Source: Deltaproteobacteria bacterium
GTDB lineage: Bacteria; Desulfobacterota; Desulfobacteria; Desulfobacterales; C00003060
Assembly: GCA_003647275.1 (NCBI GenBank)
Contig: QMMN01000020.1
Location: 1-40,099 of the forward strand
Direction: 5' to 3'
Length of the DNA stretch: 40,099 nucleotides
How positions within the stretch are numbered: position 1 is the first letter of the stretch; each line of letters begins with the position of its first letter. The notes under the pieces were generated by a model. The model was not told the origin of the DNA. It did no database searches and was given only the letters and a program-made list of their open reading frames with translations. Shown here piece by piece: positions 5,993 through 26,820 of the stretch. The position numbers and the translations under genes are program-made.

Positions 5993-6030
5993 TGGGACTC
6001 CAGACCCTGTTGCTGTCGACAGAGGCATTC

Positions 6031-6064: not shown

Positions 6065-6068
6065 ATTC

Positions 6069-7712: not shown

Positions 7713-7733
7713 CCCCATCACAGGCGATCAGGT
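7713..7733. repeat. 21-bp direct repeat, copy 1 (gene-end fragment)
   Basis: The plus strand reads CCCATCACAGGCGATCAGGT at 7714-7733. Copies with one mismatch each to this one lie at 8904-8924 and 9596-9616, all in the same orientation. On the minus strand it reads as codons for DLIACDG, matching HLIAFDG in the remnant gene at 9551-9804. It begins exactly at the stop codon of the HEPN gene, so copies 1 and 2 flank the HEPN/MNT pair. Confidence 0.75.
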
Positions 7734-9485: not shown

Positions 9486-9567
9486 GGTTTTTCTGGACAC
9501 GAACATCTTTATCTATTCCATTGATGCCTCTGCCCCTCCTTATTTGATGCTTATACCTTTGCTTTGA
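9475..9567 (+). pseudogene. Truncated PIN-domain toxin (VapC-like)
   Basis: The frame encodes MKDKVFLDTNIFIYSIDASA and then ten unrelated residues before a stop, 30 residues in all. The first 20 residues are the first strand and helix of a PIN ribonuclease, with the catalytic aspartate in FLDTN; family members have about 130 residues. The PIN-like part stops near 9537, where the end of a minus-strand gene remnant begins, so a deletion or insertion junction lies around 9537-9551. The rest of the PIN gene is not in this window. Confidence 0.85.
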
Positions 9568-9837: not shown

Positions 9838-10725
9838 TCACAAGGGTATCAATGTACCATCATAATTGAGAGAAAACCCCCACTGATCTTTATCCATCAA
9901 ACAAGAGCCTGGCTTCCAACATAATTCAGAAGGTGGCATGTGTTGTCCGGCTCCCCTTCTTTGATCCCATTCACGCCCTCTTAACATTTCAATATCGCCC
10001 TTAACATCAATATTGCCGTGGGCCATATGAGCAGGAATATACCTACGCTGACCTTTCAGAACAATCGATGCCTTTTCTTTATTGAAAGATTCTGCCCATA
10101 CAGGGCAAGTAACACTTGAACAGTTTCCATCCTCAAGCAATAGCCGTCCAAATCCATATCGCTGCTCACCTCCAATTTGAAGGGAGGACAAGACCTTTGC
10201 CAGCTCCAGCCCCATCAAAGTGGGTTTTTCGGGAACTGCATTATTTAAAAAAATGTATCCTCGCAGGTAAACCGGCATTGAATTTTCAGGTTTATCCACA
10301 ATCGTCTGATGTGATAACAACTCAATCTCATGTAAAGATTCATCCTCGGCTGTACGAGAACTATGGTCAATGCCTGTAGTAGTAAACGAAGTAATAAAGC
10401 AGCGCTCGAATTCATCCTGTGGCAAAGCACCCCACATTAATCCCTCATTCGTGTATCGGGGGAGGTAATCGTTTTGACGGTTTTTAAAATCTTCTGTGAA
10501 ATAAAAATAGGAGAATTTAGCATTCTTTTTCAGCATCTCTCCAACACCTTGGTAATCTGGCAAATCCTTGCCTGATATCATTTGTGCGAGGCGAGCAGTC
10601 ACCGCCGCCCACATGTTCCTGCCCGGCACGTAGTATCGGGTTTTTGCCAACATGCCTATTTGTCGATATCCAATGTGTAGTGGGCTTTTAAGTCGAAAAA
10701 CAACTTCAAACGCTTCCCAACTCAT
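9838..10725 (-). CDS. RAMP-superfamily subunit of the type III-C complex (Cmr3/Cas5-like position)
   Basis: The 295-residue protein has RAMP features: an N-terminal strand WEAFEVVFRLKSPLHIGYRQ, a helix with GRNMWAAVTARLAQM, and the glycine-rich loop GGEQRYGFGRLLLE (about residues 187-200). Such subunits bind crRNA in type III complexes. It is the last gene of the III-C operon and overlaps cmr5 by four bases (ATGA). Because Cmr1-, Cmr4-, Cmr5- and Cmr6-like members are already accounted for, I infer that it holds the crRNA 5' tag like Cmr3 or Csx10, but sequence alone does not settle this. No frameshift is visible. Confidence 0.75.
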   Translation of the reverse strand: MSWEAFEVVFRLKSPLHIGYRQIGMLAKTRYYVPGRNMWAAVTARLAQMISGKDLPDYQGVGEMLKKNAKFSYFYFTEDFKNRQNDYLPRYTNEGLMWGALPQDEFERCFITSFTTTGIDHSSRTAEDESLHEIELLSHQTIVDKPENSMPVYLRGYIFLNNAVPEKPTLMGLELAKVLSSLQIGGEQRYGFGRLLLEDGNCSSVTCPVWAESFNKEKASIVLKGQRRYIPAHMAHGNIDVKGDIEMLRGREWDQRRGAGQHMPPSELCWKPGSCLMDKDQWGFSLNYDGTLIPL

Positions 10726-11132
10726 GGCGTATCCTCCTCACCCGTGGGAGCCTTAGAATCAGGAAGGGCCTTAGCGTGATAGCGGGCGTAAATGAGAGCC
10801 TGGGTGAGAACTGAGTGACCCAAAAGCAGCTTATCTATGTCTTTAGCCAATCCTCCCCTGATCTCATCCAAAATATCGCCAGACCCCAAAATGTTAATTC
10901 CTTGTTGACCGAGCAAAGACGCGGCATGCTCGGAAAGGGCTTCCGTCACATGTTTGTTTTGTGCCTTAAGATAGAGGAAGAAAGCGTATACACCCTGCTC
11001 TTGTAAGACTCCGAGCGATTTTGTAATCCAGTTAACATCCTTTTTTTCTGATTTCTGAAAAACCTTCCCGGCAATCTCAAACCCCGCTCCAGCGGCAATG
11101 GCATCTAAGTTGATTGGTTGCTCATGCGCCAT
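10722..11132 (-). CDS. cmr5: Type III small subunit Cmr5 (Cas11)
   Basis: The 136-residue, mainly helical protein matches the Cmr5 small subunit in size and pattern: SLGVLQEQGVYAFFLYLKAQ and LLLGHSVLTQALIYARYHAK. Small subunits line the target-RNA side of the type III backbone. It starts after AGGAGGG, overlaps the end of cmr4 by 11 bp and shares an ATGA with the following RAMP gene, so it is translated as part of the tight III-C operon. Confidence 0.85.
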   Translation of the reverse strand: MAHEQPINLDAIAAGAGFEIAGKVFQKSEKKDVNWITKSLGVLQEQGVYAFFLYLKAQNKHVTEALSEHAASLLGQQGINILGSGDILDEIRGGLAKDIDKLLLGHSVLTQALIYARYHAKALPDSKAPTGEEDTP

Positions 11133-12066
11133 TCTTGTTCCCTCCTATATTCAACACCTTCATCCGTCCCATTCCCCGACTGTTCATGCCACCAATGCCT
11201 AAATATTCGAGGTGACAAAATCCTTTTTCCACCGCGTCCCGCACCGAACTGATGCTATTTGAATTATTACTCTGAAATGCAGTGATCTCCTTTCCACCGA
11301 TTCTATAATAGGCAGGACTCTGGCAGACTACATCGAAACAAAATATTGTGCTTCGAGGAATTGCCTCATATGTGAACAGTGCCCCATCATCAGCCGCGCC
11401 TGTTGCCGGATCTATGGCAACAGATGTTCTCACTTCTAAGTTGGTTTTGACAATCTGACCAAAAAGTTTGTTGGATACCAAGACAATGCGCGCTTTAATG
11501 TCATTTGGGATGGATTCGTCTGTCTCAATTTCATCAATTGCACCTTCACTTTCCAACAATAGCCAGCCCAGGTTGATGGGACTGTTCAAGCCCTTTGATA
11601 ATTTGACCTTGTTTTCAGAAACACTCGGCATCTTTTGCCCGTCCCCGATTATACTCAACTGTCCTGGACTCGTAATCCACACGGGACCTTGCATACTGCC
11701 TACAGGGAAAAGCATAACATGCATATCAGAAAAGTTTGCCAGGCCAGAGAAGCTGTTTTGCTTCTTTGAAAATCCGAACGTAGTACAAACCAGGCAATCT
11801 TCTTTGCCGCAATGCCCGGAAGTAGGTTCGTCTTTCTTCTCTTGTCCTTGACCTGCACACCGCGGATATTTCCCCTCTACTTGCATCGCCAAATACGTCC
11901 TTGTCACTCCTGACAAACTAGTGCCGGGAATCTTAGGCAGATTCGTGCCTGGTTCTCGGACTATCGTATTATCGACACGGCCAAGCCGGTACCCACCAGT
12001 ACCAACATGGATCGGGTCAAGGGCCATGGCATAGTAGGTTTTCGGATCAAAATTATTTTTGCTCAT
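11122..12066 (-). CDS. cmr4: Type III RAMP protein Cmr4 (Cas7 backbone subunit)
   Basis: From the start MSKNNFDPKTYYAMALDPIH, seven bases after GGAGGG, the protein has 314 residues. Cmr4-type motifs include an N-terminal DPIHVGTGGYRLG, the LPKIPGTSLSGVTRTYLA helix, a CxxC pair in GKEDCLVCTTFGF, and the C-terminal glycine-rich loop YLGIGGMNSRGMGRM. Cmr4 subunits form the helical backbone on the crRNA and cut the target RNA at 6-nt intervals. The start overlaps the cas10 stop region by 14 bp, showing translational coupling. Confidence 0.9.
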   Translation of the reverse strand: MSKNNFDPKTYYAMALDPIHVGTGGYRLGRVDNTIVREPGTNLPKIPGTSLSGVTRTYLAMQVEGKYPRCAGQGQEKKDEPTSGHCGKEDCLVCTTFGFSKKQNSFSGLANFSDMHVMLFPVGSMQGPVWITSPGQLSIIGDGQKMPSVSENKVKLSKGLNSPINLGWLLLESEGAIDEIETDESIPNDIKARIVLVSNKLFGQIVKTNLEVRTSVAIDPATGAADDGALFTYEAIPRSTIFCFDVVCQSPAYYRIGGKEITAFQSNNSNSISSVRDAVEKGFCHLEYLGIGGMNSRGMGRMKVLNIGGNKNGA

Positions 12067-14989
12067 CACCTGTCCCTCCAAGACGTTTTTTCAAGATCTT
12101 CAAGTGCAGTTCAAGGCAATCTTTCAACAGTCCATCAAGTACTGCTTGTTTCATTTCTTCCAATTGGACTCCGTTGAACTTCCACTGCACCTTCAAGGTA
12201 GTTTCGACCAGTTGCCGCCGAGCGTCTTCGTCCCCCCAATCGTTGAGCGCCTTTTCGATTATCGCCCAGCCGTTACGCAAAGCAGTATCAGTAAGTTCGT
12301 GATTTCTGAGAATGTACCACAAATTGGATAATGCATCTACGTCCTCCAAATACCGCAGCGATTCGCCAGCCTCGAAGCGTCTGGCGGTGGTATCGAGAAA
12401 AATAAAAGAAAATCGGGAAGGATGGATCGTAACCGTGTCCCCTGCTTCCAGTTCAGACACATGCACCCTCTGATGGCTTCCTTTGCCAGGCACAGCAAAG
12501 GTGTGGGCACGTTCTTCCAGAGCTTTTCCCTCTGTTTTGAAATAAGGATAGAAGTAATCTGTCTTGTTTGGGTCAGCAAAACCGTATGAGATATGCCAAC
12601 ACACCTTTCTTCCGTCAGGGCGACCAAGGGTGAGGTGGCGAACCCTATTTCCATTGGAGGCATCATTAGCCGCCAGCACTTGCCACTTTTCTTCCTTTTG
12701 GCTTCCAAACGCTTTAGTCATCCGATGGCCGGCTTCCATTACTGCAAACAATGGAGTCTTACGGGGAAAAAATGTCAGCCCCATATGGAGGGGCAGCCGA
12801 TCGCGTACCTTAGACATTTCAGCTTCGTATTTTGCTTTGATCTGCTGGGCGATCTCCATGGCCTGCTCGGCAGGAATCAGCACCCAGAAGCGATCCGGGG
12901 TGCGGGTGATCGGGATAATTGGAATATTTCCCTCGGTAGGAAGTGCAGCGGATAGAGTAACTTCTCTCCACTCCCTGTCGTCTTCTGACCGGATGCTCAA
13001 GTTGCCTTTTTCTTCAGTTAAACGATGGGCCAAGGTCGTGGCATCTTCATTTTCCCTGGCAAGCCACTGGAGATTGCTTATGGTGACCCATTGGCTATTG
13101 ATGTGACATATGCTGATGGAAGCGCCGTTTAATGTCCCATCGTAAACCTTGGATTTGTCCAGCTCATTTGTCTTTAAGGTAAGTATGAGACGGGTGGAGC
13201 GTAGCCCTTCAAAAGCAGGAAGCTTCTTGATCTCATCCAAGCTCTGGTCGAAGAAAGTTTGCGTGGTTTCCCAGAAGCGGCGGATACGGGCGGGAGAAGG
13301 GTGTTTTTTGAATAGTTGATGTAATAACCAATTGGTCCTGTCATCATCAGCCAAATTGAACCAGTTGGGCATATCCTTAATTGCCCGATCTTCTACAATA
13401 GATGCGAAAAACGACTCAAATGATGTTGCATGTTTGAAACCGTCATGAATGTGTTTAATTATACAGTCATTTTTTTCTGATTTTTCTAAACATTGTTGAA
13501 TCTCTCTTCTGAGACCCGATTCAGTGCCATTTGTATTGGCCACTTTTTTGATGGCTGCATTATTATGAATCCACTCCCAAATCGATTGGGCTCGCAAACT
13601 GTCCGAATTTCGGCCATCTAACCAATGTCTAAGATCAAATGACGTCACCAGCAGTGCAACTCGACCATGACGATCAGCCACCTCCTCAAGCCAGATGGTC
13701 CCATGAGACTTAGCGATATCTTCCTTCCATTTTTCTCCCCTCCCACTTCGTCTTACCCTGCAAATATCACAGACGACATCCTTATTATTCTCATTCCCAT
13801 TTAGCCGGACCGAACATACAGGGCACACATTTCCATCAGGGGCGGTGCCATTAATTTGGACCTCACGAACAGGAACTAAGGTATCCTTTACCGTATTACG
13901 CATCAACTGAACCATTGGAATTAATGAACGAGTTGACTCGGAGATCTTGACTACGGGAGTGATCTCCAAATCAAGATCATGTGCAAAGTTCTTAATGCGT
14001 TCTTTTAGCTCGTTTTTCACTTCAGCATAATCCACATCAGGGTATGAAAAATAAGCACCATTAACATCACAGTATAACAAAGCGCCTACCGGCCTCTCTA
14101 CCTCCAGCAGCCTCTGAACCGCCATGAAAAACTTTTCAACCACATCCTTGATACCCAACACGTCACCAATCTTGATCCCTCGCCCAATCAAGTGTTGTGT
14201 GTTCAAACCAACGCCAAGAATACTCCATTTCATCTCACGACTGACGTCATCAGGCAATTGATGGGTCAACAAGCCCATAGCAATACCGCTTTTCATCAAA
14301 GCCGCAGCCACATAAGATTGATCCCACACCGTGACATCGTTATTAGGCAACCTGGTTTCAGCCAACGAAGATGAAAGCGCCTTTTTCAGCCATCCACCTT
14401 CGCCTATTGTCTGACGACGGATTTGGAACCATGACTCGACATCCATGGTTGCGTAATTCGAAAGGATAGTCTTTAGCAACTGCGCTACCTTCTCATAAAG
14501 TTCTTCACGTCCTTGAGTGGAATAAAAGTCAGGCTGATGGACAAGAAGGTTTCGGACTCCACACCCAAAGGCGTTTGTCATCCACATATTCACAGATGAT
14601 TGCCTCAAATACCCAGAAGTATCTTTTGGTAAGTTCTTTTCAACGCCCGATACAATCCCGTGGGCCTCTTGCAACAGATACAACAAACCGTCTCCGTCTT
14701 TTTTTCTATGTTTCTTGAAAAAACTGGCAAGTTTTGGTGCGTGTGAATTGAATGGTTTAGAACCCATTAGGATGTTTTTAAATGCTTTATCATCGGCTAA
14801 TTCTTTCAATTGATCGTCTTGCTTGTAGAACTCTTCATACTTATATTCAGGCTTTTTGTTCCCAGGAATATCCTTACATTGTCCTCTCAGAAAATCAGGA
14901 TGAACTTTACCCAGCATATGAAGCCAACCGATTATCTCGCTCGTAATTAGCAGGGATCTGTTGTCCCGAAGACAATCAAGCCTACTCAT
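12053..14989 (-). CDS. csx11: Csx11-type Cas10 large subunit (type III-C), probably without cyclase activity
   Basis: The 978-residue protein is a Cas10 large subunit. The N terminus has GWLHMLGKVHPDF in the place of an HD motif, but the aspartate is methionine (H24-M25). A first palm-like region carries LLYCDVNGAYF (about 304-314). A zinc ribbon with CPVC and CDIC lies at about 388-409. The second palm region reads PITRTPDRFWVLIPAEQAME (about 690-709), so the GGDD motif expected there is absent. Size, gene context and the lost cyclase motif fit Csx11, the large subunit of type III-C (MTH326-like) systems. I infer that it makes no cyclic oligoadenylate and has no HD nuclease activity. It overlaps the upstream RAMP gene by four bases. 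Confidence 0.85.
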   Translation of the reverse strand: MSRLDCLRDNRSLLITSEIIGWLHMLGKVHPDFLRGQCKDIPGNKKPEYKYEEFYKQDDQLKELADDKAFKNILMGSKPFNSHAPKLASFFKKHRKKDGDGLLYLLQEAHGIVSGVEKNLPKDTSGYLRQSSVNMWMTNAFGCGVRNLLVHQPDFYSTQGREELYEKVAQLLKTILSNYATMDVESWFQIRRQTIGEGGWLKKALSSSLAETRLPNNDVTVWDQSYVAAALMKSGIAMGLLTHQLPDDVSREMKWSILGVGLNTQHLIGRGIKIGDVLGIKDVVEKFFMAVQRLLEVERPVGALLYCDVNGAYFSYPDVDYAEVKNELKERIKNFAHDLDLEITPVVKISESTRSLIPMVQLMRNTVKDTLVPVREVQINGTAPDGNVCPVCSVRLNGNENNKDVVCDICRVRRSGRGEKWKEDIAKSHGTIWLEEVADRHGRVALLVTSFDLRHWLDGRNSDSLRAQSIWEWIHNNAAIKKVANTNGTESGLRREIQQCLEKSEKNDCIIKHIHDGFKHATSFESFFASIVEDRAIKDMPNWFNLADDDRTNWLLHQLFKKHPSPARIRRFWETTQTFFDQSLDEIKKLPAFEGLRSTRLILTLKTNELDKSKVYDGTLNGASISICHINSQWVTISNLQWLARENEDATTLAHRLTEEKGNLSIRSEDDREWREVTLSAALPTEGNIPIIPITRTPDRFWVLIPAEQAMEIAQQIKAKYEAEMSKVRDRLPLHMGLTFFPRKTPLFAVMEAGHRMTKAFGSQKEEKWQVLAANDASNGNRVRHLTLGRPDGRKVCWHISYGFADPNKTDYFYPYFKTEGKALEERAHTFAVPGKGSHQRVHVSELEAGDTVTIHPSRFSFIFLDTTARRFEAGESLRYLEDVDALSNLWYILRNHELTDTALRNGWAIIEKALNDWGDEDARRQLVETTLKVQWKFNGVQLEEMKQAVLDGLLKDCLELHLKILKKRLGGTGDEQK

Positions 14990-16200
14990 TGTTGGATCGC
15001 CTCCTGTTCATTGATCCAAAGGAGTACCTCATTGAAATTCTTAGCAGCGGATAGCTTTACTTTCTCCTCCTCTTTCCTTTTGGTTTCGTATTCCTTGATT
15101 TTGTTTTCATAATAGCGACACATGTCTTCATATCTTTTCAACTCATCTGTATGCTTTTGTTGAGCCTCACGTCCTTTCTTATATATGGCGACTTGAGCCT
15201 TTGAGAGAATCCCGTTCGGATTTTTCTTCTTCCTCTCCAAAGACTGTAGTTCTTTGTTGGTCAACATCTTCAGTGAGCCATCCATGTTCCAGAGCTGTTT
15301 GAATTTTTTTAATGTGCTCAAATCCGGCATTATTAAGTCCCCTGGTGGCTTCGGTTTTTCCGGCACCTTCGCTCCCCTGATCTGTTTGAAGTTTGTCTGA
15401 ACTTCAATGTCTACAGGTCTTGCCAAACCCCATGCAGACGAACTCTTAGCTGAAAAGCCATAAACAGTCAGCGTTTTGTCTATGGCTTGCATCATGTACC
15501 GAAGATCAGTCCATGCCTGTGCAGTAATGTCTTTCTTAGGAGCACTAATTAAGTCAAACGGCACATATAAGAGAGAAAGAACCCCCTTAGTCCCGGGTGG
15601 TATAACTTCATATAAAATTGGGTTTATACCAACCTTGCGTTCACGTTCGTGGGGATTGATTACTTCTAATGCGGTTTCATGAAAAAAGGAGGGGAAAAAA
15701 CGTAACCGCCCAGCCCGAAAACTATTATCACTCCGCTTGTCCTTTCCAAATAGATCTATGATCCGTTCTCCATCTTTTTGGTCAATGGCACCGGTCATAA
15801 GCCGACAAGCCATGCGTAACGCCCCTTTCCATGTGCTTGCAGGGCATACTGGTATTTTGAATACTCGGTCTCTTAGAATGGGGTTATCAATGATGTAAAA
15901 GTCATTCAATCCCTTGGAAAACCACGGGGACAACAGACGAAACCTGATCTTCAGAAACCAACTGCCAAAAGGCAGATGGTCAAGATCAATGGAGGGTTGT
16001 GCAATATCTTCCCAAAACGATTTACACTTGGCCGGAACAGGATGGTCGCCTGTAAACTCTGACTTCCAGGTTTCTCTAAGGTCATCGGCCTTCTTTTTGT
16101 CTGTTGATAGCAAGCTATGGTAATAGCAAATGAACTCGTCGGTTGTGCTTAAGGCTTTTGGATCGAGAGATGACGTCAACGCGCCCCAATAATCAAACAT
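14986..16200 (-). CDS. RAMP-superfamily subunit with C-terminal coiled coil (Cmr6-like)
   Basis: The 404-residue protein has a RAMP domain with SWFLKIRFRLLSPWFSKGLN and the helix PVCPASTWKGALRMACRLM (about residues 118-136), like the backbone-capping Cmr6/Cmr1 group. The last 110 residues are highly charged, with a long predicted coiled coil (QKHTDELKRYEDMCRYYENK and EYETKRKEEEKVKL). Standard Cmr6 proteins lack such a tail, so its partner is unknown. It overlaps cmr1 by eight bases and cas10 by four, so it belongs to the core operon. The assignment to Cmr6 is by position and domain, with moderate certainty. Confidence 0.7.
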   Translation of the reverse strand: MFDYWGALTSSLDPKALSTTDEFICYYHSLLSTDKKKADDLRETWKSEFTGDHPVPAKCKSFWEDIAQPSIDLDHLPFGSWFLKIRFRLLSPWFSKGLNDFYIIDNPILRDRVFKIPVCPASTWKGALRMACRLMTGAIDQKDGERIIDLFGKDKRSDNSFRAGRLRFFPSFFHETALEVINPHERERKVGINPILYEVIPPGTKGVLSLLYVPFDLISAPKKDITAQAWTDLRYMMQAIDKTLTVYGFSAKSSSAWGLARPVDIEVQTNFKQIRGAKVPEKPKPPGDLIMPDLSTLKKFKQLWNMDGSLKMLTNKELQSLERKKKNPNGILSKAQVAIYKKGREAQQKHTDELKRYEDMCRYYENKIKEYETKRKEEEKVKLSAAKNFNEVLLWINEQEAIQQ

Positions 16201-17308
16201 CGCATGCCCCCTTTAACACATCTATCCCACTTGTTGTTTGCAAGGATGTGGCTTGAATAGTCTTCATGTATTCATCGATCAAATCACCTATCTCGTTGAC
16301 CGCTTCGGTAGGCGGTATGACTCCATAAACTCTAACCACATGCATATTATTTTGAGCAGTCCGGTATGGCATACCAAAATTGAGCATACAACCACTGCGT
16401 TCAGCATCCGATATGGTTTCGCCTCCCTTTTCACTTGTTCCCATTAGTCGATTTAAACGATCCAAGTGATTTTTCCAGCCCTTTTCTTGTTCCAGAAACC
16501 GACGAAACCCAAATTTTCCGCTACCTTTATAGCGAATGTCAAAAGCGCAAGGGACATACTGGATGCTACCTGTTGGTTCAGTCCCAGCGCATTTATCTTT
16601 CCCAAATATTCCATCAAAGTTCTTAGAGAACGTTTTCCACAGAAATCGCCTTAGATCCGGTAATTGCGGATCGGCATTTCCGGTCTTAAAACGTTTACCG
16701 TTGATATCGCTCTGCAATTGGGTTAAACCGTCAGTGGGGAAGCCAGACAAGTCATCAAAGGATACAATCCCAAATCCATGTTGAAGCTTTGCTCCGATTC
16801 CGGTCCGGTTTTCAATAAATCGCAACAACAGTCCGAGCTGTGATTTCGCCTCATCAATGGAAACACCACGAAATGCTAAACGAATGGGGAACTCACCAAA
16901 GTGAACATATAAACCCGTTAGGGTACTGGTTTTAGTATCACCACCGTGTCGGGGATCAAAAATAGATGTAAGCCATGTTCTATTGAGTTTAAGGGTACTG
17001 TAGAAATGCAATGGATGTCGCTGATCACTTTCATGTTCCCACTGAAATCGAAACAATCGGGCCCATCCTGTACAGCCAAACAGGTAACACGCCGCACAAA
17101 TTGACCTTTCTCCTTTTTGGGGTTCATAGTTACACCGAGTTTCCGCCGTAGGGTCACAAGCATATCCACCTAAGCCCCTTACAATGGCCTCATACCACCA
17201 ACGGAGGCTGCCAAGGATCCCTGTTTCATGAACTCGGACACAACCCCGGTCAACCCCGCCGGTCCAGATAGGTGTTAGCGTCTTAATCTTGATCGTTATG
17301 GGCTCCAT
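16193..17308 (-). CDS. cmr1: Type III RAMP protein Cmr1
   Basis: From the start MEPITIKIKTLTPIWTGGVD, preceded by GGGAG, the protein has 371 residues. The N terminus is characteristic of Cmr1, with TPIWTGG, then HETGILGSLRWWYEAIVRGL and a cysteine-containing loop (RSICAACYLFGCTGWARLF). In Cmr complexes Cmr1 sits at the end of the backbone that contacts the 3' part of the crRNA. An open frame continues upstream to 17533 inside cas5, but it lacks homology. The start overlaps the 3' end of cas5 by 26 bp, linking the type I and type III operons on one transcript. Confidence 0.9.
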   Translation of the reverse strand: MEPITIKIKTLTPIWTGGVDRGCVRVHETGILGSLRWWYEAIVRGLGGYACDPTAETRCNYEPQKGERSICAACYLFGCTGWARLFRFQWEHESDQRHPLHFYSTLKLNRTWLTSIFDPRHGGDTKTSTLTGLYVHFGEFPIRLAFRGVSIDEAKSQLGLLLRFIENRTGIGAKLQHGFGIVSFDDLSGFPTDGLTQLQSDINGKRFKTGNADPQLPDLRRFLWKTFSKNFDGIFGKDKCAGTEPTGSIQYVPCAFDIRYKGSGKFGFRRFLEQEKGWKNHLDRLNRLMGTSEKGGETISDAERSGCMLNFGMPYRTAQNNMHVVRVYGVIPPTEAVNEIGDLIDEYMKTIQATSLQTTSGIDVLKGACDV

Positions 17309-18083
17309 GTTTTTCTCCCTCAATTCTCCGGTACTGGCTGAAACCCCGACTGCTCTGGACCAGCCTGTATGGCAATAGCGTGGGCACCAATATTCGATGT
17401 TTCCCAAGCGAAACAGCTCCTTTGCCATATGTGCTGATGCGGTCAAAGAGATTCTTGTCTGTAAAGGCATCTTTTCCAAAATCATCCAGCAAGCTAGATT
17501 TGGCGTAGAGTCCTGGACGTAGCATTGGATCATGCAACGGATGTGTGAATCCTTCGGGCAGAATATCCACGTCGTCAGCCCCTATAAACTGCATAAAGCT
17601 CCCTCGCTTACCCAGATAGTTGATGTGAACGGCTACTTTCTTAATCATTTCTATTTGCTTCGCTTCAAGTCCACCCACACCTATGGCAATAGTTAACTCA
17701 CCTCGATAATAACAGAACTCGCGGTAGGCGATTGTAGATTCATAGATCCCCCTCGGAGCGCCCCGCTTTTCTTGCTTTATCTTGATAAATGTGTTCAGCA
17801 CAACACAATGTTCAGGTGGTCTGAAACGTACCTCACGATCTTTGAGCCAGTGAAGCACTGTCACAGCCAAGTCTCTATCGCCAATGCGAAAGCTGGCGTC
17901 GATAAAGGCCAGTTTCACGGCATAAGGCGTTGGAACCAGGAGTGTCTTCCCACCTTTGCTGGTAGCGTGCGTCATGCGCAGGCTAAAAAGAGTTGTGGGA
18001 AGGTAACGGACGAGCAGCCATTGACCTTTGCCTCGATTCGGTGGACTCACAGCTTGATCACTCTTTTTCGATTGCCTGGCCAT
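17283..18083 (-). CDS. cas5: Type I Cascade subunit Cas5
   Basis: The protein has 266 residues from MARQSKKSDQ, which directly follows the cas7 stop codon (TAAGATG) behind GGGGAGCG. Features of Cas5 are the N-terminal strand QWLLVRYLPTTLFSLRMTHA followed by GGKTLLVPTPYAVKLAFIDA, and later INYLGKRGSFMQFIGADD. Cas5 binds the 5' tag of the crRNA in type I Cascade. Position after cas8 and cas7 supports the call. I cannot tell from sequence alone whether it belongs to subtype I-A or one of the I-B variants. Confidence 0.85.
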   Translation of the reverse strand: MARQSKKSDQAVSPPNRGKGQWLLVRYLPTTLFSLRMTHATSKGGKTLLVPTPYAVKLAFIDASFRIGDRDLAVTVLHWLKDREVRFRPPEHCVVLNTFIKIKQEKRGAPRGIYESTIAYREFCYYRGELTIAIGVGGLEAKQIEMIKKVAVHINYLGKRGSFMQFIGADDVDILPEGFTHPLHDPMLRPGLYAKSSLLDDFGKDAFTDKNLFDRISTYGKGAVSLGKHRILVPTLLPYRLVQSSRGFSQYRRIEGEKHGAHNDQD

Positions 18084-18084
18084 C

Positions 18085-19032
18085 TTACGCTCCCCAAGGT
18101 TGAACTTTTTCAACGATTTCTGTCATCTTTTCAGCAAATCCGCTCAGAGAATCAAAAGTGTATACCGTTACAGCGTTTTCGGCTAACTTGTTAAGGGTAG
18201 CGGCGATGCTCTCAACTTCGCTGCGATAGTCGGGGTTCAGCGCGCTAACAGTGGGTGCGGGCACGGTAGATGTGGAGGCGGCAATAACCCCCTCAAAGTT
18301 AACGATGTGCGGGTTCTGAGTGTTGCGATGCGCCCCGCCGGGCTTAATAAAGGTATAGAGCACCGATTGCAGCAATGCCTTGATACGCTTTTGTCTCTCA
18401 GTGTTGTCGAGGGCATAGGACAACGTAATATCATTCATCCCCACCCTGAATAGGTCCAGATTGAGAACCACGGCATACTGTCCGCTGGAGGCTGGACGGT
18501 GAAAGATGTTCTGACCAAGATTCTCGGCACTGCCAGAGCCAGCCTCCCGGCCTTCAGGGACATACTTGGCATGAAAGTATGATTCCGTCATGACGGAAGA
18601 AGGGTGCCCTACTACCCAGCCGAATTCTATAACTGACTTGCGTGCGATGGATTTGTTGTTGGTAGTAATGAGAATTCCTTCACAATCATCCATTATGCAG
18701 GTATTAAGCGCCGTGTTCAGGACCTGACTATCCTGAGTATCTCTGGTAAAAGATTCAGTAAACGATTCGTCTTCGCATATTCGATTTGCGCTAAATAGTT
18801 TGCAGCCATCACATAGATTCAGATTTTGCTCCCCAGCAAGCCGGTAGAGGTGCTCAGCCTGAATATGTTTGAACATGTCGCCTGAGATGGCATTCACCGT
18901 ATGGTTTTCACCGTTTTCATCCACTATTTCCACCATGCGGGTCATCAGTGCGTTGCCTTCCGACCCTTCATTATTGAGGGCATGAAGGTTTATGGTGGCA
19001 AGTCCGGAAATACTCAATGAATGTAGCTTCAT
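18085..19032 (-). CDS. cas7: Type I backbone subunit Cas7 (DevR/Cst2 family)
   Basis: The 315-residue protein starts MKLHSLSISGLATINLHALN and contains NNEGSEGNALMTR and NAISGDMFKHIQAEHL, the hallmark N-terminal region of the DevR-family Cas7, named after the Myxococcus dev locus. A CxxC (NLCDGC) lies near residue 74, and the C-terminal half contains FIKPGGAHRNTQNPH. Six or so copies coat the crRNA guide in Cascade. It lies 36 bp downstream of cas8 and two bp upstream of cas5. In Myxococcus the DevR homologue is also an autoregulator; nothing here tests that. Confidence 0.92.
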   Translation of the reverse strand: MKLHSLSISGLATINLHALNNEGSEGNALMTRMVEIVDENGENHTVNAISGDMFKHIQAEHLYRLAGEQNLNLCDGCKLFSANRICEDESFTESFTRDTQDSQVLNTALNTCIMDDCEGILITTNNKSIARKSVIEFGWVVGHPSSVMTESYFHAKYVPEGREAGSGSAENLGQNIFHRPASSGQYAVVLNLDLFRVGMNDITLSYALDNTERQKRIKALLQSVLYTFIKPGGAHRNTQNPHIVNFEGVIAASTSTVPAPTVSALNPDYRSEVESIAATLNKLAENAVTVYTFDSLSGFAEKMTEIVEKVQPWGA

Positions 19033-19068: not shown

Positions 19069-20727
19069 TTAAGCGACACCCGATGACTCATCATCGGCAG
19101 CCTCAGTCCCAGGGTCTGTCTTGGGTGGCCGGGCAAATCCATAGGCCAAGAGAAGCATCCCGACCAGCTCTGCCCCATGTTCGTCGATTAGTCCAAACAC
19201 CTTATCTAACTCGTGACTTTTAACAGTATGGCCTTTCCCCTTCAGTCTGTGCTCCGTCTCCCAGTTGTATTGCTGAACAAAGTCCGCCAACAACGGGAGA
19301 AAGCTCTTGCTTCCGCCCTTCATTTTCTGTTTCCAGTCTTGGGCTAGCCCGAAACGAACCTCTCTTTTTTTTAAACTCAGAGCATAAATGGTGCTGTTGC
19401 GAATAGCTCTGGCTACGGACAGAAAACCGTCATTGGTGATTATCTCCTCTGCTTTCATCGGATACCCCCTTACTAAAAGCTCTTTAATATTAACGATAGA
19501 CAATTCCTTCACTCCGCGGCGTTGCATTATGTGGACGGCAAACCGGGCGGTGAACTCAAGAAAGTCAGAGAGTTCTCCCGTGGTAAGCCATTTCCTGTAT
19601 TGCTGAAGAACAGGAACATCGCCAGAGCGTGACTCAGCCAGTGAGCCTAGAGAGCCTGCTGTTCGCTCTGCCCCCTTTTGTGTGCCGATATGCTCTTCGA
19701 TGATCCCGAGAAAGGCATTTGCCGCCCCCCTGTCGGATATGACAAACCAGCCCGGCAGGGGCATAAAAGCATCGTTCATGAGGGCAGAGGCAGTGCCCAG
19801 ATTTTTAAAGAATGCCTGCCGCAGGCCCTTTACGATCTCATTTGGCCTTCGGCGTCGAAGGCCGATCTGCCGCCCCATGACATCACTTTTGAGGATAAGT
19901 TGCTCTGCCAGCCTCAAGGATGATTCAATATCCAGGCGGATGCCGCCCCAGAGATTGAGGTCCATAAGCGTGTGACGCAAGGCCCTGAGGGCCTCAACGT
20001 CGATATCGCCGGGTTCTATCACATACACTTTGATGTCTTTGCCAACCCGGTACGGCAGCATTGCCGAGTATGCGCCCCGGTATTTCATCCACTCTGAAAA
20101 CGGGTCAACAACCTCTTTGCTAATGGCACCAGGAGATTTGGCCACGGTCTTGGCAGCGTGGACTCCCTTGCCAGTGGCTGGTGAGAAGAACTGGCTGTTG
20201 CTCAGGCGAACAGGGGGGACAAACTCATCCCCGGAGGTGAGCCGCGCTCTGGCCCATTCCAATGCCTTTTCGGGATGTTCCACAATCCATCGATAAAGCT
20301 TCTTGTCAGCATCCCAACCCATGCGCATGGAGGCCAAAATACTTGCCATACGATATTCACGTGTCGGTTGCTCCGGCTCCGGCAGCCCTTGCTCTCTGAG
20401 CACTTGCTCCAGTTCAGCTTTTTTCTTGCCGTTCGGTCTTCTATATAGCCTTGCGGCCTCGTCTTTTTTTCTCTCCTCGTCGTAATCGATTACCCGGCCC
20501 TGTGGACGTTTACCGTCTTTGTTTCTCAGAAAGATAAAAGGGTATCCGGGGCCGGGTGGCTTCCAGTCCATAGGTGCGGTCTCACCGACCACACTTATAC
20601 GAAACGCATCCCCTATATCCTCAATGCGGACCGGAACACCTGTCAGCTCCCCGAGAAGATCTGCCGTCCCGACCGCCTCCAGTGTGTCCGCATAGGTACC
20701 AGTGAATTTTTGGATTTTATATTCCAC
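19069..20727 (-). CDS. cas8: Type I Cascade large subunit, Cas8 family
   Basis: The 552-residue protein starts at a GTG behind GGGGAGA. I recognise no strong motif beyond a general Cas8 look (MASILASMRMGWDADKKLYR, FFKNLGTASALMNDAFMPLP, ELSDFLEFTARFAVHIMQRR, a helical C terminus), so the call rests mostly on position: it is the large gene directly before cas7 and cas5 and the only candidate for the PAM-reading subunit. With DevR-type Cas7 it resembles the Myxan-like or I-A/I-B group, but the subtype is not resolved. Its start lies 11 bp after the abiEii stop codon, so it could be expressed partly from the abiE promoter. Confidence 0.75.
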   Translation of the reverse strand: MEYKIQKFTGTYADTLEAVGTADLLGELTGVPVRIEDIGDAFRISVVGETAPMDWKPPGPGYPFIFLRNKDGKRPQGRVIDYDEERKKDEAARLYRRPNGKKKAELEQVLREQGLPEPEQPTREYRMASILASMRMGWDADKKLYRWIVEHPEKALEWARARLTSGDEFVPPVRLSNSQFFSPATGKGVHAAKTVAKSPGAISKEVVDPFSEWMKYRGAYSAMLPYRVGKDIKVYVIEPGDIDVEALRALRHTLMDLNLWGGIRLDIESSLRLAEQLILKSDVMGRQIGLRRRRPNEIVKGLRQAFFKNLGTASALMNDAFMPLPGWFVISDRGAANAFLGIIEEHIGTQKGAERTAGSLGSLAESRSGDVPVLQQYRKWLTTGELSDFLEFTARFAVHIMQRRGVKELSIVNIKELLVRGYPMKAEEIITNDGFLSVARAIRNSTIYALSLKKREVRFGLAQDWKQKMKGGSKSFLPLLADFVQQYNWETEHRLKGKGHTVKSHELDKVFGLIDEHGAELVGMLLLAYGFARPPKTDPGTEAADDESSGVA

Positions 20728-20738
20728 TGCTCTCCCCT

Positions 20739-21593
20739 TTATTTAAAAAGATGTGCTATAGCCTTGCGCAGATCTTCAATAGCAATGTCTGCGGGTGGAA
20801 TCGTTTTCAGGTGGCTACCCAGGGATGGAACCCACTGTTTTTTCATGTGAAACATCCTCTCCGGAGGGAAGAAAACGGATCTGTCCCTGAAGTCTATGCC
20901 CTTTGTCCTACATTTTTTCTCAAAGGTTGCTGGTACTACCCTCCAATTTATTCTGTCCTGGCAATGAGACCAGAGATACCAGAGGTCATAGCAATCTCGC
21001 GGGGCTATATACGATCTCTGGATGAGCGAACGTAGTTTTTCGGCAAAGATCTCTTCCAGGCAATACACGGGTATTTCATTGCCCGCTGCTGCACAATCAG
21101 AATAAGAGTGCAATAAAGGTCTGCGGGCCACCGGCAGACAAATTTCCTCATGTAAAGAGACATCGATCCTGATCCTCGTCATCCATCGATGCTGATCAGG
21201 AATCTGCCGATGTCGGGGGTGTGCTGCACCCCAAAAGGGGAGGGAAATCCGGTAACCCATCAGACGATCTTCAAAAAGTTGCCGTTGGACAGCGGGTGCG
21301 CCGAAATGAATACCCGTTTCTTCATAAATAGGTTCAAGACTGCGAGTCAATGACTGACGGAACATGGAATCGGTTAACGGCTCCGCAGCAGTAAAATCCA
21401 GGTCTTCGGAAAAACGATAGTCGGAAAAATATGCCTTCCGAAGGCACGTGCCACCCTTAAATACCAATTTCTCTTTTAATTCATGGCTGAAAATCCCCCG
21501 CAGCACATGCCCCAAAACCCAATCTTTATCCACCGTTTCAACCGGCACTCCCCATAAAGCTGACTTTTCTCTCAACTCTTTGGGGGTCAACAT
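20739..21593 (-). CDS. abiEii: AbiEii nucleotidyltransferase toxin
   Basis: The 284-residue protein has the four AbiEii motifs: KGGTCLRKAYFSDYRFSEDLDF (motif I, with GGT and the SEDLD metal site, about residues 46-67), RIRIDVSLHEEI (II), CLEEIFAEKLRSL (III) and RDCYDLWYL (IV). AbiEii toxins are DNA polymerase beta-type nucleotidyltransferases whose relatives add nucleotides to tRNA 3' ends; they arrest growth in abortive phage defence. The start lies 7 bp after the abiEi stop, with GGAGGG overlapping that gene's end. It is embedded between cas3 and cas8 on the same strand. Confidence 0.94.
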   Translation of the reverse strand: MLTPKELREKSALWGVPVETVDKDWVLGHVLRGIFSHELKEKLVFKGGTCLRKAYFSDYRFSEDLDFTAAEPLTDSMFRQSLTRSLEPIYEETGIHFGAPAVQRQLFEDRLMGYRISLPFWGAAHPRHRQIPDQHRWMTRIRIDVSLHEEICLPVARRPLLHSYSDCAAAGNEIPVYCLEEIFAEKLRSLIQRSYIAPRDCYDLWYLWSHCQDRINWRVVPATFEKKCRTKGIDFRDRSVFFPPERMFHMKKQWVPSLGSHLKTIPPADIAIEDLRKAIAHLFK

Positions 21594-21600
21594 TGCAATA

Positions 21601-22419
21601 TTATCCCTCCGCCATGCCCAGGAGGGCCTGATTCGAGAGGTTAAGTAGCAGTTTCCATCGACATATTCGTTTCCCTGTGGGGGGAGATAAAGGGTCCAGG
21701 ATAGAATAGGTTTTGGTAAGCCGAGCCAGCACCCTTTCTCTGAATTTGGCGAAATCTTCTATATCGTAAAGCTCGGAAAGATAGGCAATGCGTTTCATCA
21801 CTGTCTGATTGCCTATACTCTCTGCATAGTGCCAGAGATTCTCCTTGTCCAAATCCCTGTGGGCAGCATAAAGCCCCTTGGCCGCTTCCACAAAGCCCCC
21901 AGCATATTCCGGCAGGTCAAAACAATCGATGATCGTCTTTTCCGGATCCGTGATTTTATATCTTGCCATACCACTCCACTCGTCCCTGACTCCATAAAAC
22001 TTTTGAGGCCTGACCTTGATAAATTTGTAACGGACATTCAGTATCTCTTTAGAGGTCTTTTGCTTAATGGTCTGCACAAACACCACGTTCGGAATCTGTT
22101 CTGTCCAACCATAATGGTTTAGGGCTGACTGATAGGCAATAGCAGACGGGGAAACGAGCCGAGTTCCGATGACAAAGGAGTCACCTGTCTGGGATGATAA
22201 CAGGTCACCGAAAATATACTTTCCTTTCTCCAGAAGAACGACCCATTCCTTTTTTCTTAACCTGTCTAAAATCATTGGCCAATCTCGCCATCGTCGATAC
22301 ACTTCCGGCCTGAATCTTAGATCCTGTGTCCTAAATACTCCCTCGGGAAAAGTCTCCTTTATCCATTTTAGAAGCTCCATCTCCCGGGCCGTCGTTGTAT
22401 TAGTATAGATCTGGGTCAT
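21601..22419 (-). CDS. abiEi: AbiEi antitoxin and transcriptional regulator
   Basis: From MTQIYTNTTTAREMELLKWI the protein has 272 residues. An ATG at 22485 would add 22 residues but would put the coding start inside the inverted-repeat operator, so I prefer 22419. The N-terminal winged helix (FRTQDLRFRPEVYRRWRDW, then LRKKEWVVLLEKGKYIFGDL) and the C-terminal antitoxin domain (SAIAYQSALNHYGWTE, ITDPEKTIIDCFDLPEYAGG) match the AbiEi family, type IV antitoxins that repress their own promoter through inverted repeats. It lies downstream of cas3 and upstream of its toxin abiEii. Confidence 0.92.
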   Translation of the reverse strand: MTQIYTNTTTAREMELLKWIKETFPEGVFRTQDLRFRPEVYRRWRDWPMILDRLRKKEWVVLLEKGKYIFGDLLSSQTGDSFVIGTRLVSPSAIAYQSALNHYGWTEQIPNVVFVQTIKQKTSKEILNVRYKFIKVRPQKFYGVRDEWSGMARYKITDPEKTIIDCFDLPEYAGGFVEAAKGLYAAHRDLDKENLWHYAESIGNQTVMKRIAYLSELYDIEDFAKFRERVLARLTKTYSILDPLSPPTGKRICRWKLLLNLSNQALLGMAEG

Positions 22420-22420
22420 A

Positions 22421-22485
22421 ATGTTATATTTCGTGGTAATATTCCCTTCCGAAAGTTGATATATTAATAACACAAAATATAACAT
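22421..22485 (-). promoter_or_regulatory. Inverted-repeat operator upstream of abiE
   Basis: The plus strand has ATGTTATATTTCGTGGTAAT at 22421-22440, and the complement of 22465-22484 reads ATGTTATATTTTGTGTTATT. The two arms of about 23 bp match at most positions and are separated by about 18 bp. Known AbiEi proteins bind a pair of 23-bp inverted repeats over their promoter, so this is the expected negative-autoregulation site. It means the abiE pair, and possibly the downstream cas8-cas7-cas5 and type III genes, can be transcribed from a promoter here. Confidence 0.75.
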
Positions 22486-22506: not shown

Positions 22507-24978
22507 TTATCGATTATTTTTCATACTTCCCTGGTCTGCCAAGCGTAACCGTCGCACCACAAGGACATACAAGGGCCAAAGCGGATAGTCCTCCTGACGC
22601 TGAAAGGACAGGAGGTCATTTGTGAACCTTTGCTGCTCATCCCTGTTGGGTTGGTCTACTAAACGCCAGCCCTTCTCGAAGTTTTCCGGCACTGACTTTT
22701 GTAAAATTTCCGATGCCCTGTCGATTAATTGAAAAGAGCCAAGACTCCGGGTATGGGGAGCGTGGTGTCTGGCAATGGCCGTCCATACCACAGCAGCCAC
22801 ATCATCGCTCAATTCTTGCTCCAGCAAACCTTGACTAACGGCAAAGGCCCCTTCCATTGCATGCGACCCTTGTTTTGGAAACTGTTTTCGTTTCTGCCAA
22901 TCGACCTCAGGTTCATAGTCTGTATGGGCTAACGGCTCATCCATGAGCTTGGAGGCGTCCTTGAATTCCTGCCAGGCCCTCATCGCCGCCTGCCACTGCT
23001 TGGTCAGTTTGCCCACGTCGTGGAGCGCACAGGCCAGTTCAAAAAGCTGTTCGCATTTTTCGTTCGTCATGCCGCCATGCATTTCGATAGCCCGCACGGC
23101 TGTCTCATACTTGTGCGCCATTTGACGGCACTGACTGATAACCCGTTCTGTATGCTCCCGAAAGGTCTCGTATTCAAGCTGATAACGGGGAAGGGGCGGG
23201 CGGTGATCATAAATGACAGGGGCAGCGTGACCGCTTACTCCCAATTGCAAACCGAGATCTGGAGAATATGAAGCGGCATCTGGGTGGATGGCAATAAGCC
23301 AGGGAGCGGAAAGAAGTCGGCGAACACTGGAGACCTTTTCCCAATCCCATTGTAATGCTCCGCCCGGCAAGGCCTTGCTCTCTGCTGGAATCTTGGCCAC
23401 CCATTGCCCACCCCCTTTGCCTTCAAATGCCTCTGTAAGGGCAAACAGGCTGACCCGAGGAACAGAAATCATCCGAGGCCACATTGTCCTGTCGAAACGG
23501 AGAGAGTCAGGGTCGTCAGTTATGATGAGACTGATTGAGGCAACATCCCTGATCAGTTGTCTTACGGCGTCTTTCATTTTGTTTTCCATGGCGTCATGCA
23601 CCATACGCCGCCGTTCATACAAATTGGCAAAAACCTGTAAAGCAGCCAATTCGGCCTGTGTATGTACCTCATCTACCCATACGTGTTCCGTACCAGAACT
23701 TACGACCTTCCCGTTGCTGTCAAGCCTACTCAACATCTGCCGGGAAGACTCCAATAATTCGCGTGTGGGCTCATCTCTGTACGGCCCCCACTTTAATTGT
23801 TGATCTTCTCCACGTTCCAACTCATATACCCACACCGTCCCTATACTCCTTGGCCCGCCATATCTTGCGCATCGCCCGGCCCGTTGGACAAGGCTGTTCA
23901 TCGGGGCCAACTCTGTATGAAGATTATCCGCCGAAATATCCATCCCGGCTTCGATGACCTGAGTAGTAACCAGAATGACATCGGTACGGGTAGCCTCTTT
24001 GCCAAGGTACTCTTTGAGTTTATCTTCCATTTGTTTGCGATCCTGGGGATAGAAACGGCTGTGAAGCAAGAGCACCTGTGTTGAGGTTTCACGAGTCGCC
24101 CTTTTCAATGCTACGTACAGGTCTTGTGCTCGCTTCACGGTGTTTACGAGCACAATAGAGCGTCCCTTCCCGTGATGCTCCAACACATGCCCGACTTCCA
24201 ATGGTTCAGGCACCCAGCAATAGGCGCGCTGTTTTTCACGATGGCACGGAAGTGACATAACTTCCTCACCGGAAAGGTATACCTGTTCAGCCTGCAAGGT
24301 ATCCGCAAGCCATGCCTGAGTCCTTCCGCTCATAGTGGCTGTCATCACAAGAAAGCGGCAAAACGGTTTGAGGCGATCCAGCATTTCCAGGGTCGTACCC
24401 ATTGCCCTGTCAGGCTCCAACAGATGAAATTCGTCAAACACCAGAAAAGAACCAAGCAATGCCCCTGCATTGATATTGCCAAGTCTTGGAGGCAACGATA
24501 CCGGCATCATGAAATAAGAGGAGAGAAGCTGATCAATAGTCGTAAAAACAATATCCCCTTCAAAAAAAGGATCATCCTGTTGCTCGCCGGTTTGGATAGT
24601 AATATACAGATGAGCGGTCTCTTGGTAATCTCTATCTTTGCCCACTGTGACAACCGTGTCTTGGCCAAATGCCATCTGACATGCTGTTACGGTGTCCTTG
24701 AATAGGGTAGTCGCCAGCGTTCTCAGCGGTAAAGCAAAGATGAGGCGATCAAAGAGCGATTCCCCAATCTTCTTGGAGTAAAGAAACGGCAATAGCGCTG
24801 CCCAAGTCTTCCCAGCACCCGTTGGAGCAGAAAGGATAACATTGCGACCAGAAAAAAGATGTTCAGCCACTCTCTCCTGATAGGGATAAGGTTCAAAACC
24901 ATGCCCTCCAGTCAACTGATTAAATAAATCTCTTATTCCCTCAAGTTGTTCCTTAACCACCCGTTTCCCATTGTTCAT
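22507..24978 (-). CDS. cas3: Cas3 helicase-nuclease with C-terminal HD domain
   Basis: The 823-residue protein carries an SF2 helicase core first: Walker A SAPTGAGKTWAALLPF (about 54-69), LVFDEFHLLEP (DEFH in place of DEAH, about 179), VMTATMS, and QRAGRCARYGG (about 367). An HD nuclease domain follows: LACALHDVGKLTKQWQ (about 650), then AHTDYE and KQGSHAMEGAFAV. Cas3 is recruited by Cascade to unwind and degrade target DNA. Most Cas3 proteins have the HD domain at the N terminus, so the reversed order is notable. No clear ribosome binding site precedes the start. It is the first gene of the type I set; its stop lies 88 bp before abiEi. Confidence 0.94.
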   Translation of the reverse strand: MNNGKRVVKEQLEGIRDLFNQLTGGHGFEPYPYQERVAEHLFSGRNVILSAPTGAGKTWAALLPFLYSKKIGESLFDRLIFALPLRTLATTLFKDTVTACQMAFGQDTVVTVGKDRDYQETAHLYITIQTGEQQDDPFFEGDIVFTTIDQLLSSYFMMPVSLPPRLGNINAGALLGSFLVFDEFHLLEPDRAMGTTLEMLDRLKPFCRFLVMTATMSGRTQAWLADTLQAEQVYLSGEEVMSLPCHREKQRAYCWVPEPLEVGHVLEHHGKGRSIVLVNTVKRAQDLYVALKRATRETSTQVLLLHSRFYPQDRKQMEDKLKEYLGKEATRTDVILVTTQVIEAGMDISADNLHTELAPMNSLVQRAGRCARYGGPRSIGTVWVYELERGEDQQLKWGPYRDEPTRELLESSRQMLSRLDSNGKVVSSGTEHVWVDEVHTQAELAALQVFANLYERRRMVHDAMENKMKDAVRQLIRDVASISLIITDDPDSLRFDRTMWPRMISVPRVSLFALTEAFEGKGGGQWVAKIPAESKALPGGALQWDWEKVSSVRRLLSAPWLIAIHPDAASYSPDLGLQLGVSGHAAPVIYDHRPPLPRYQLEYETFREHTERVISQCRQMAHKYETAVRAIEMHGGMTNEKCEQLFELACALHDVGKLTKQWQAAMRAWQEFKDASKLMDEPLAHTDYEPEVDWQKRKQFPKQGSHAMEGAFAVSQGLLEQELSDDVAAVVWTAIARHHAPHTRSLGSFQLIDRASEILQKSVPENFEKGWRLVDQPNRDEQQRFTNDLLSFQRQEDYPLWPLYVLVVRRLRLADQGSMKNNR

Positions 24979-25275: not shown

Positions 25276-25837
25276 TCATTTGCCATAGGCAGCCCGGACT
25301 TCTTTGATATCAAAACCAATCGGCTTCTTCGGAGGGTCACGTGGCGGAAGGAGCAGCGGGCGTATCTTCTCAAACAGCTCCTTCAGCTGAGTGTCGTGGA
25401 CCAGGAGGATCTTCTCGATCTGATCCAGGCGTTCCTCAAGATCGCGGCGCGATGTGAGTTCCTCGCGCATACGAACGAATGCGCGGACAACATAGATGCT
25501 CATGGCAACGGCGGTCTTGCTCTTTAGAATGTTCGCGGCCATCAAAGCACCGTGCTCGGTGAAGGCATACGGAGGGTATTTCCGGTGCTGTCCGCGCTTT
25601 AAGATCGCATTTTGCGACCTTAAACGTCGCACATCCTCCCACTCGTCCGTGGGTAAGCCGAAATATGAAGTCAGCCGGAAAACGATCCGCATTTCGCTTG
25701 ACCTGTTCGTTCAGGCGTCTGATCTCAACATTGTAGATTCTCGCCAGATCAGTATCCAGAATGACTTTTTGCCCGCGAACTGTATGGATCAAGGCTTCGA
25801 CGGGTACCGGTACCAGGGAACCGTTCTCCTTAGTCAT
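25276..25837 (-). pseudogene. ORF6N-domain gene, frameshifted (copy 1)
   Basis: The frame starts MTKENGSLVPVPVEALIHTV and encodes the ORF6N N-terminal domain (KVILDTDLARIYNVEIRRLN, DRFPADFIFRLT), then goes out of frame near 25680-25660. The rest continues in another frame from TDEWEDVRRLRSQNAILKRG through YAFTEHGALMAANILKSKTA to the end GFDIKEVRAAYGK. A single indel would join them. The family includes phage anti-repressor-like DNA-binding proteins. Its start overlaps the stop of the next copy upstream by eight bases (ATGACTAA), as in a tandem operon. Confidence 0.8.
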
Positions 25838-26417
25838 CCAGTGTCTCCCAGGACTGCCTTTTCTTTTTCCTCTTTGCACCCTTGCCATAAGCAGCACGCC
25901 TCTCCTTGACGACAAAACCGATCTTTTTTCGCGGCTTTTCAGGCGGCGTCATAAGTTCGCGTATAGCGTCAAACACAACCTTGAACTGCTCATCATATTT
26001 CTTCTCCATTTCTTCTACTTTACGCAACAGAGCTTTGTGAGAAGAGATCATTTTCCGGAGTTCCACAAATGCCCGCATTATCAAAATGTTTACTTCAATC
26101 GCTTGTTTGCTGTTGACCACTGATGACAACATGGCCACACCCTGTTCGGTGAAAGCCATGGGCAAATACTTCGTATGCTCTCCTCTTTTTAAGGTGCCAA
26201 TTTGGCACCTTAAAGAATCATACTCCTCCTTGGTCAGTTCAAACATGAAATCAGACGGAAACCTGTCAAGATTCCGTCTAACGGCCCGTTTCAGTTGTTT
26301 TGTTTCCACCCCATATAACTCGGCGAGAGCCCGGTCAATCATGACCCTCTCGTTGCGAATGACGAATATTCGACGTTGAATTGACTCAATTGGAACAAGT
26401 GACCTCTTCTCCGTCAT
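25830..26417 (-). CDS. ORF6N-domain DNA-binding protein (intact copy 2)
   Basis: From ATG 26417 the protein has 195 residues; a GTG two codons upstream is possible. It reads SIQRRIFVIRNERVMIDRAL and AELYGVETKQLKRAVRRNLD, the ORF6N domain (about residues 10-95), with [20 protein letters not shown], followed by a coiled coil (KALLRKVEEMEKKYDEQF) and a basic tail. This is the only complete member of three tandem relatives. ORF6N proteins are common in prophages and in chromosomal arrays; a role in CRISPR function is not known. Confidence 0.9.
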   Translation of the reverse strand: MTEKRSLVPIESIQRRIFVIRNERVMIDRALAELYGVETKQLKRAVRRNLDRFPSDFMFELTKEEYDSLRCQIGTLKRGEHTKYLPMAFTEQGVAMLSSVVNSKQAIEVNILIMRAFVELRKMISSHKALLRKVEEMEKKYDEQFKVVFDAIRELMTPPEKPRKKIGFVVKERRAAYGKGAKRKKKRQSWETLDD

Positions 26418-26458
26418 GATCACTACCCCTTTTTCAAATCAGGATTGCAGTCTCAAAT

Positions 26459-26820
26459 TCAATCAGGCTTGCGTCTTGGCTTCTCTGGTGGCGAAATGAG
26501 CTGGCGAATGGCCTCCTCTCATCATGCTTTTCAATCTTGCGCTCCAGTTCGCTTAACTTCACCGCCAACTCCTTGTGTGTCGAAACCACATGTCGAAGTT
26601 TTACAAAGGCGCGCATAATGGCTATGTTCACCTGAATAGCCTGCAGACTGTTCAGGACACTGGAGAGCATAGCAACACCTTGCTCCGTAAAGGCATAAGG
26701 TAAGTAACGACGACCACCACGCCCTGTCTTTGAGATGCCAATCTGGCATCTCAAACGTTCTGCCTCATCAGCAGTAAGCTGAAACATGAAATCTTGAGGA
26801 AAGCGATCAATATTCCGTTA
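26459..26820 (-). pseudogene. ORF6N-domain gene, truncated and frameshifted (copy 3)
   Basis: The frame has [20 protein letters not shown], then [20 protein letters not shown] and [20 protein letters not shown], but its N-terminal 50 or so residues are missing: the frame is broken at about 26820. Near the end, a frameshift after KIEKHDE diverts it; in the shifted frame [18 protein letters not shown] ends at a stop at 26459-26461, matching copy 2 (ELMTPPEKPRKK). It is thus damaged at both ends. Confidence 0.8.

Follow-up and report, generated by a model that had tools for sequence, protein, structure and literature searches.

What looks like a complete type IV AbiE toxin-antitoxin pair, with both proteins apparently functional, lies in line within a CRISPR-Cas (clustered regularly interspaced short palindromic repeats and associated genes) operon, between cas3 and cas8, in contig QMMN01000020.1 of a Deltaproteobacteria bacterium (assembly GCA_003647275.1). 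The stretch analysed, called the window below, is the whole of this contig of 40,099 nucleotides, part of a draft assembly totalling about 3.0 Mb. As judged from sequence divergence, purifying selection has kept abiE in place in the one close relative with the locus. AbiE is a known kind of toxin-antitoxin; its place in this operon was not found described in the literature searched, a partial search having returned no paper that describes AbiE inside a Cascade operon.

The pair is encoded on the minus strand as an adjacent bicistron with the antitoxin gene first, behind a short leader:

22421–22485, minus strand: putative abiE operator and leader, with repeat arms at 22471–22485 (minus strand) and 22421–22435 (plus strand).
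21601–22419, minus strand: abiEi, predicted antitoxin and autorepressor of 272 amino acids, corrected start at 22419 (PADLOC AbiEi 7.5e-74; structure model).
20739–21593, minus strand: abiEii, predicted nucleotidyltransferase toxin of 284 amino acids (PF08843 2.7e-35; PADLOC 3.1e-78; motifs; structure model).

The coordinates bear out the preliminary description of this DNA, which had placed abiEi and abiEii in line between cas3 and cas8, with gaps of 7 bp between abiEi and abiEii and 11 bp between abiEii and cas8. A start of abiEi at 22485 was ruled out by an in-frame TAA upstream of the ATG in the relative presented below, where the open reading frame starts at the equivalent of 22419. Positions 22420–22485 are therefore leader and operator, and not coding sequence.

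AbiEii matches PF08843 with 122.9 bits, for a cut-off of 22.5. A motif scan found GG-x15-DLD (from residue 47), KLRSLIQR (186) and RDCYD (199) all intact, and mutation of the S. agalactiae AbiEii has shown that the same motifs are required for toxicity (PMC3985639). The fold of the model (predicted local distance difference test score, pLDDT, of 89.8) matches those of MenT3 and MenT4. The model of AbiEi (pLDDT 89.9) matches a solved AbiEi antitoxin (6y8q, E=2e-7) and Rv2827c (1zel, template modelling score, TM, of 0.65). The score of AbiEi with Pfam PF09407, which describes the C-terminal domain, is 20.9 bits, slightly below the cut-off of 22.2. The N-terminal winged helix-turn-helix (wHTH) and the C-terminal antitoxin domain that define an AbiEi were both recognised, by PADLOC and by the match of the model.

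The leader carries an inverted repeat that reads, on the coding strand, ATGTTATATTTTGTG and then, 35 bp on, CACGAAATATAACAT. The two 15-bp arms match at 14 positions, which was equalled in one of 300 shuffles. Taken as 23-mers starting with TGTT (22462–22484 and 22422–22444, with 17 bp between them), they match at 19 of 23 positions, and none of 300 shuffles equalled this version. The second arm stops 1 bp short of the abiEi ATG (22419). Both arms are kept in the congeneric contig and are the sole exact matches in the 3.0-Mb genome. The inverted repeats typical of AbiEi binding that had been noticed upstream of abiEi were thus confirmed by shuffling, by conservation in the relative and by uniqueness in the genome. 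On these grounds the paired inverted repeat is assigned as an AbiEi-type operator, in a position comparable to that of characterised AbiEi operators. A search for additional AbiEi targets that could control cas6, cas3 or the CRISPR array found no further paired operator, and the other sites, with two to three mismatches, are single and near chance. Among stand-alone AbiE loci of the same class, some have inverted repeats near abiEi and others are indistinguishable from shuffles; one (L059) has a perfect inverted repeat abutting the abiEi ATG, as in the window.

A survey of 389 genomes of the class for this Cas8 gave a match in two, its own genome and one congener. The locus of the congener is a 7,225-bp contig, JAUVJO010000162.1 (L008), which was reached by two search routes and shows the same gene order as the window, cas3-abiEi-abiEii-cas8-cas7-cas5-cmr1. 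Of the proteins encoded in this operon segment, AbiEi is the most conserved, with 90% identity between the two copies. The ratios of nonsynonymous to synonymous divergence (dN/dS, Nei-Gojobori) between the two loci are 0.08 for abiEi, 0.20 for abiEii, 0.23 for cas3, 0.11 for cas8, 0.08 for cas7 and 0.14 for cas5, with a synonymous divergence of 0.35–1.4. The values for the two abiE genes are comparable to those for cas8 and cas3. Such low ratios at that synonymous divergence indicate that the abiE pair has remained functional since the divergence of the two loci. The preliminary description had made its proposal depend on the position of abiE in close relatives, and this position is kept in the sole close relative with the locus, with regard to both gene order and operator. 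Two further congeners share the phoR neighbourhood but have no cas locus beside phoR, so the whole cas locus is accessory.

The pair is flanked by cas genes in line with it:

22507–24978, minus strand: cas3, upstream neighbour of abiE, a helicase with a C-terminal HD domain (PF22590 6.9e-32; Cas3_HD 3e-8).
19069–20727, minus strand: cas8 (Cas8a-like), with a GTG start 11 bp past abiEii preceded by AAGGGGAG (PADLOC Cas8a 5.3e-38).
18085–19032, minus strand: cas7 (DevR/Csa2; PF01905 4.6e-75).
17283–18113, minus strand: cas5 (Cas5a; PADLOC 1.4e-72).
9838–17533, minus strand: type III-C genes in line downstream, namely cmr1, cmr6, cas10/csx11, cmr4, a small gene at the cmr5 position and a gene at the cmr3 position (PADLOC Cas10c 1.9e-172, Cmr6 2.6e-65, Cmr1 5.4e-21; Csx11 8.6e-132; RAMP Pfam matches).

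The junctions cas3-abiEi and abiEii-cas8 both lack a recognisable terminator-like site. A strong terminator at the latter junction had been named beforehand as evidence that would speak against the earlier proposal; the 11-bp gap leaves no room for one. As cas3 and cas8 overlap or are adjacent in most relatives, the cassette, by splitting them, has necessarily changed the transcription context of cas8. Considering the intact pair, the AbiEi-type operator, the lack of room for a terminator and the retention under purifying selection, read-through control of cas8 and the downstream genes by the abiE promoter is plausible.

We propose that an AbiE cassette was inserted between the cas3 and cas8 genes of a type I-A Cascade operon before the loci of the two congeneric species diverged. 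Repression of the abiE promoter by AbiEi is established for the family, in which the antitoxin counters the toxin without contact between the two proteins. By analogy, AbiEi would here occupy the two repeat arms in the abiE leader and repress its own promoter. Transcripts from this promoter would cross the 11 bp between abiEii and cas8 and continue into cas8-cas7-cas5 and the type III-C genes, and others would probably also arrive from upstream of cas3, so that antitoxin level and effector expression would change in parallel. The MenT-like nucleotidyltransferase AbiEii would arrest the cell when the supply of AbiEi ceases. A cell that lost or silenced the operon would be punished (addiction) with no need for special sensing, and the cassette could perhaps act as a backstop during infection (abortive infection). 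Taken as a whole, this explanation, in which an autoregulated type IV toxin-antitoxin cassette reads through into cas8-cas7-cas5 and the type III-C genes and stabilises the operon, has in our estimate an even chance of being right. A stronger claim is put forward only tentatively, and we hold it to be rather doubtful: that the pair is built into the Cascade operon as a protein-based guard of CRISPR-Cas, the autorepressor setting the expression of cas8-cas7-cas5 and the type III-C genes and the toxin imposing a cost on cells that lose or silence the operon.

CRISPR operons are costly and frequently lost, and RNA toxin-antitoxin guards are known. If the proposal is true, the conserved protein pair and its operator ahead of Cascade would constitute a second, independent tie of cells to the CRISPR system, and Cascade would be placed under toxin-antitoxin control. 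Regulation and guarding by abiE are a reasonable reading of the sequence, and abiE may tie the survival of the cell to keeping the CRISPR machinery.

Several observations weigh against this proposal. The main weakness is that the arrangement is carried by only two genomes. Ten further loci with a Cas8 of this family, belonging to the phylum of the window and to four other groups of bacteria, have no abiE at this place. These loci (L009, L010, L028, L029, L031, L032, L033, L039, L040 and L041) are those of one Endomicrobia genome, one Bryobacterales genome, Deinococcus gobiensis, four cyanobacterial plasmids and three genomes of the own phylum; cas3 and cas8 overlap in those of Endomicrobia and Deinococcus. 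Thus, the conserved abiE-cas8 adjacency that the preliminary description had looked to a survey to reveal holds for the congener and fails in the distant loci. Because of this absence, the cassette is taken as a lineage-specific addition that was later kept; as judged from gene order, abiE is an accessory addition and not a core part of the Cas8a-type locus. Purifying selection on abiE is also expected from toxin-antitoxin addiction alone. Finally, another genome of the same order has a different AbiE in line with hsdM, 17 bp upstream of it, so in-line insertion beside defence genes is not unique to CRISPR and can arise without a CRISPR-specific function.

Recurrence of the association was also examined from the side of the toxin. 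None of 28 other loci of the class with the best AbiEii of the subfamily has these cas genes in its 1.5-kb flanks, and there is no cas family among the 25 most frequent families common to several AbiEii-flanking genes. Of 38 genomes for which both an AbiEii and a Cas3 are among the matches listed, only the two have them within 100 kb of each other; many genomes are fragmented, and a rare case could escape. On the same basis, no recurrent AbiE-cas link was found in the class besides these two. Relatives of this AbiEi were not found in viral contigs and phage records, and those on plasmids are distant ones only. Two of the cyanobacterial plasmids have, where abiE stands in the window, an opposite-strand gene for a protein of about 315 amino acids between cas3 and cas8 (L029, 6901–7851; L033, 4906–5853).

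The singularity of the arrangement and the AbiE in line with hsdM are what would be expected if a mobile AbiE had merely landed in a defence cluster, been tolerated since it did not block read-through, and been kept because a toxin-antitoxin is hard to lose, with no further effect on CRISPR. The presence of other modules in the same locus (the nucleotidyltransferase (MNT)/HEPN pair at 7733–8735, the ORF6N genes at 25276–26787 and the PDDEXK_3 gene at 5609–6115) fits such hitchhiking as well. This is a serious possibility, although we do not think it the probable one: spacing, operator and gene order were kept despite the synonymous divergence of 0.35–1.4, and the splitting of the cas3/cas8 pair could not leave the transcription context of cas8 unchanged.

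The position of abiE directly ahead of cas8, together with the precedent of CreTA nested in cas loci (PMC12737573), could instead suggest a dedicated guard, in which AbiEii activity or abiE transcription would be coupled to Cascade and the toxin released by an anti-CRISPR or by loss of Cascade, as a protein counterpart of CreTA. We consider this very improbable. AbiE has its own protein antitoxin, so that Cascade is not needed in that role, and a search for CreA-like or spacer-based control found no degenerate repeat or crRNA-like (CRISPR RNA-like) element near abiE and no spacer matching it, the best repeat match in the operon region (20 of 37) being no better than elsewhere. Nothing therefore points to a Cascade-dependent antitoxin. 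It is very improbable that AbiEi was co-opted mainly as a transcriptional regulator of the Cascade operon, the toxin being secondary. The strong conservation of AbiEi agrees with such a role, as does the WYL-domain gene, another type of regulator, that adjoins cas6 and cas3 in the Deinococcus relative. However, the catalytic motifs of AbiEii are kept, its dN/dS of 0.20 indicates that the toxin is not decaying, and no second copy of the operator serves cas3, cas6 or the array.

The proposed cassette resembles the AbiE of S. agalactiae in the abiEi-abiEii order, the AbiEii motifs, the AbiEi antitoxin fold and the TGTT-starting paired repeats over the leader. That system is a bicistronic operon with a 23-3-23 bp operator layout (Dy 2014, PMC3985639), whereas the pair in the window is in line inside a cas operon, with a 23-17-23 layout. 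Rv2827c-Rv2826c (MenT4) of M. tuberculosis provides the best full-length structural match for AbiEi (1zel) and a strong one for AbiEii (MenT4, 6y56). Its operator consists of two pairs of repeats with 13-bp gaps (23-13-23) and no cas link is described in the accessible part of the report (Beck 2020, PMC7319586), in contrast to the one pair with 17 bp in the window. CreTA, a type VIII RNA toxin-antitoxin (PMC12737573), is likewise found in a type I cas locus and could punish loss of the operon, but it is RNA-based and repressed by Cascade, whereas the window encodes two proteins, and the search for a Cascade-dependent element was negative. Toxin genes of cas loci surveyed in 2012 are similar in that functions of suicide or dormancy are placed within an immunity locus; that survey found no typical antitoxins in immunity loci (Makarova 2012, PMC3506569), whereas the window holds a full pair, antitoxin included.

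The left part of the window is occupied by a large CRISPR-Cas locus on the minus strand, in the order cas6, three ORF6N genes, cas3, abiEi, abiEii, cas8, cas7, cas5, the type III-C set with Cas10/Csx11, the MNT/HEPN pair, cas1, cas2, cas4 and an array of 65 repeats. The best-scoring models of Cas8, Cas7 and Cas5 are of type I-A, which makes the locus type I-A plus III-C. A second toxin-antitoxin-like pair (7733–8735, minus strand), between the III-C genes and cas1, consists of a wHTH plus MNT gene that overlaps the HEPN gene. The three ORF6N-domain genes are in tandem (25276–26787, minus strand) between cas6 and cas3, and two of them are apparently N-terminally truncated. An ORF6N gene is also present near a different AbiE locus (L060, 213–773). 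Between cas2 and cas4 lies a PD-(D/E)XK gene (5609–6115, minus strand; PDDEXK_3, GxxExxY-like). A short plus-strand open reading frame (9469–9567), between the cmr3-position gene and the MNT gene, has no family match; it begins with a PIN-toxin-like opening, MKDKVFLDTNIFIYSID, followed by a stop, and is possibly a vapC remnant. In the contig with the hsdM-linked AbiE (L074, 5837–11530), the AbiE-hsdM segment is preceded by two genes, one of them ATPase-like, which we take, from their sequence and not from a search result, to be a defence pair; transposase-like genes flank the segment.
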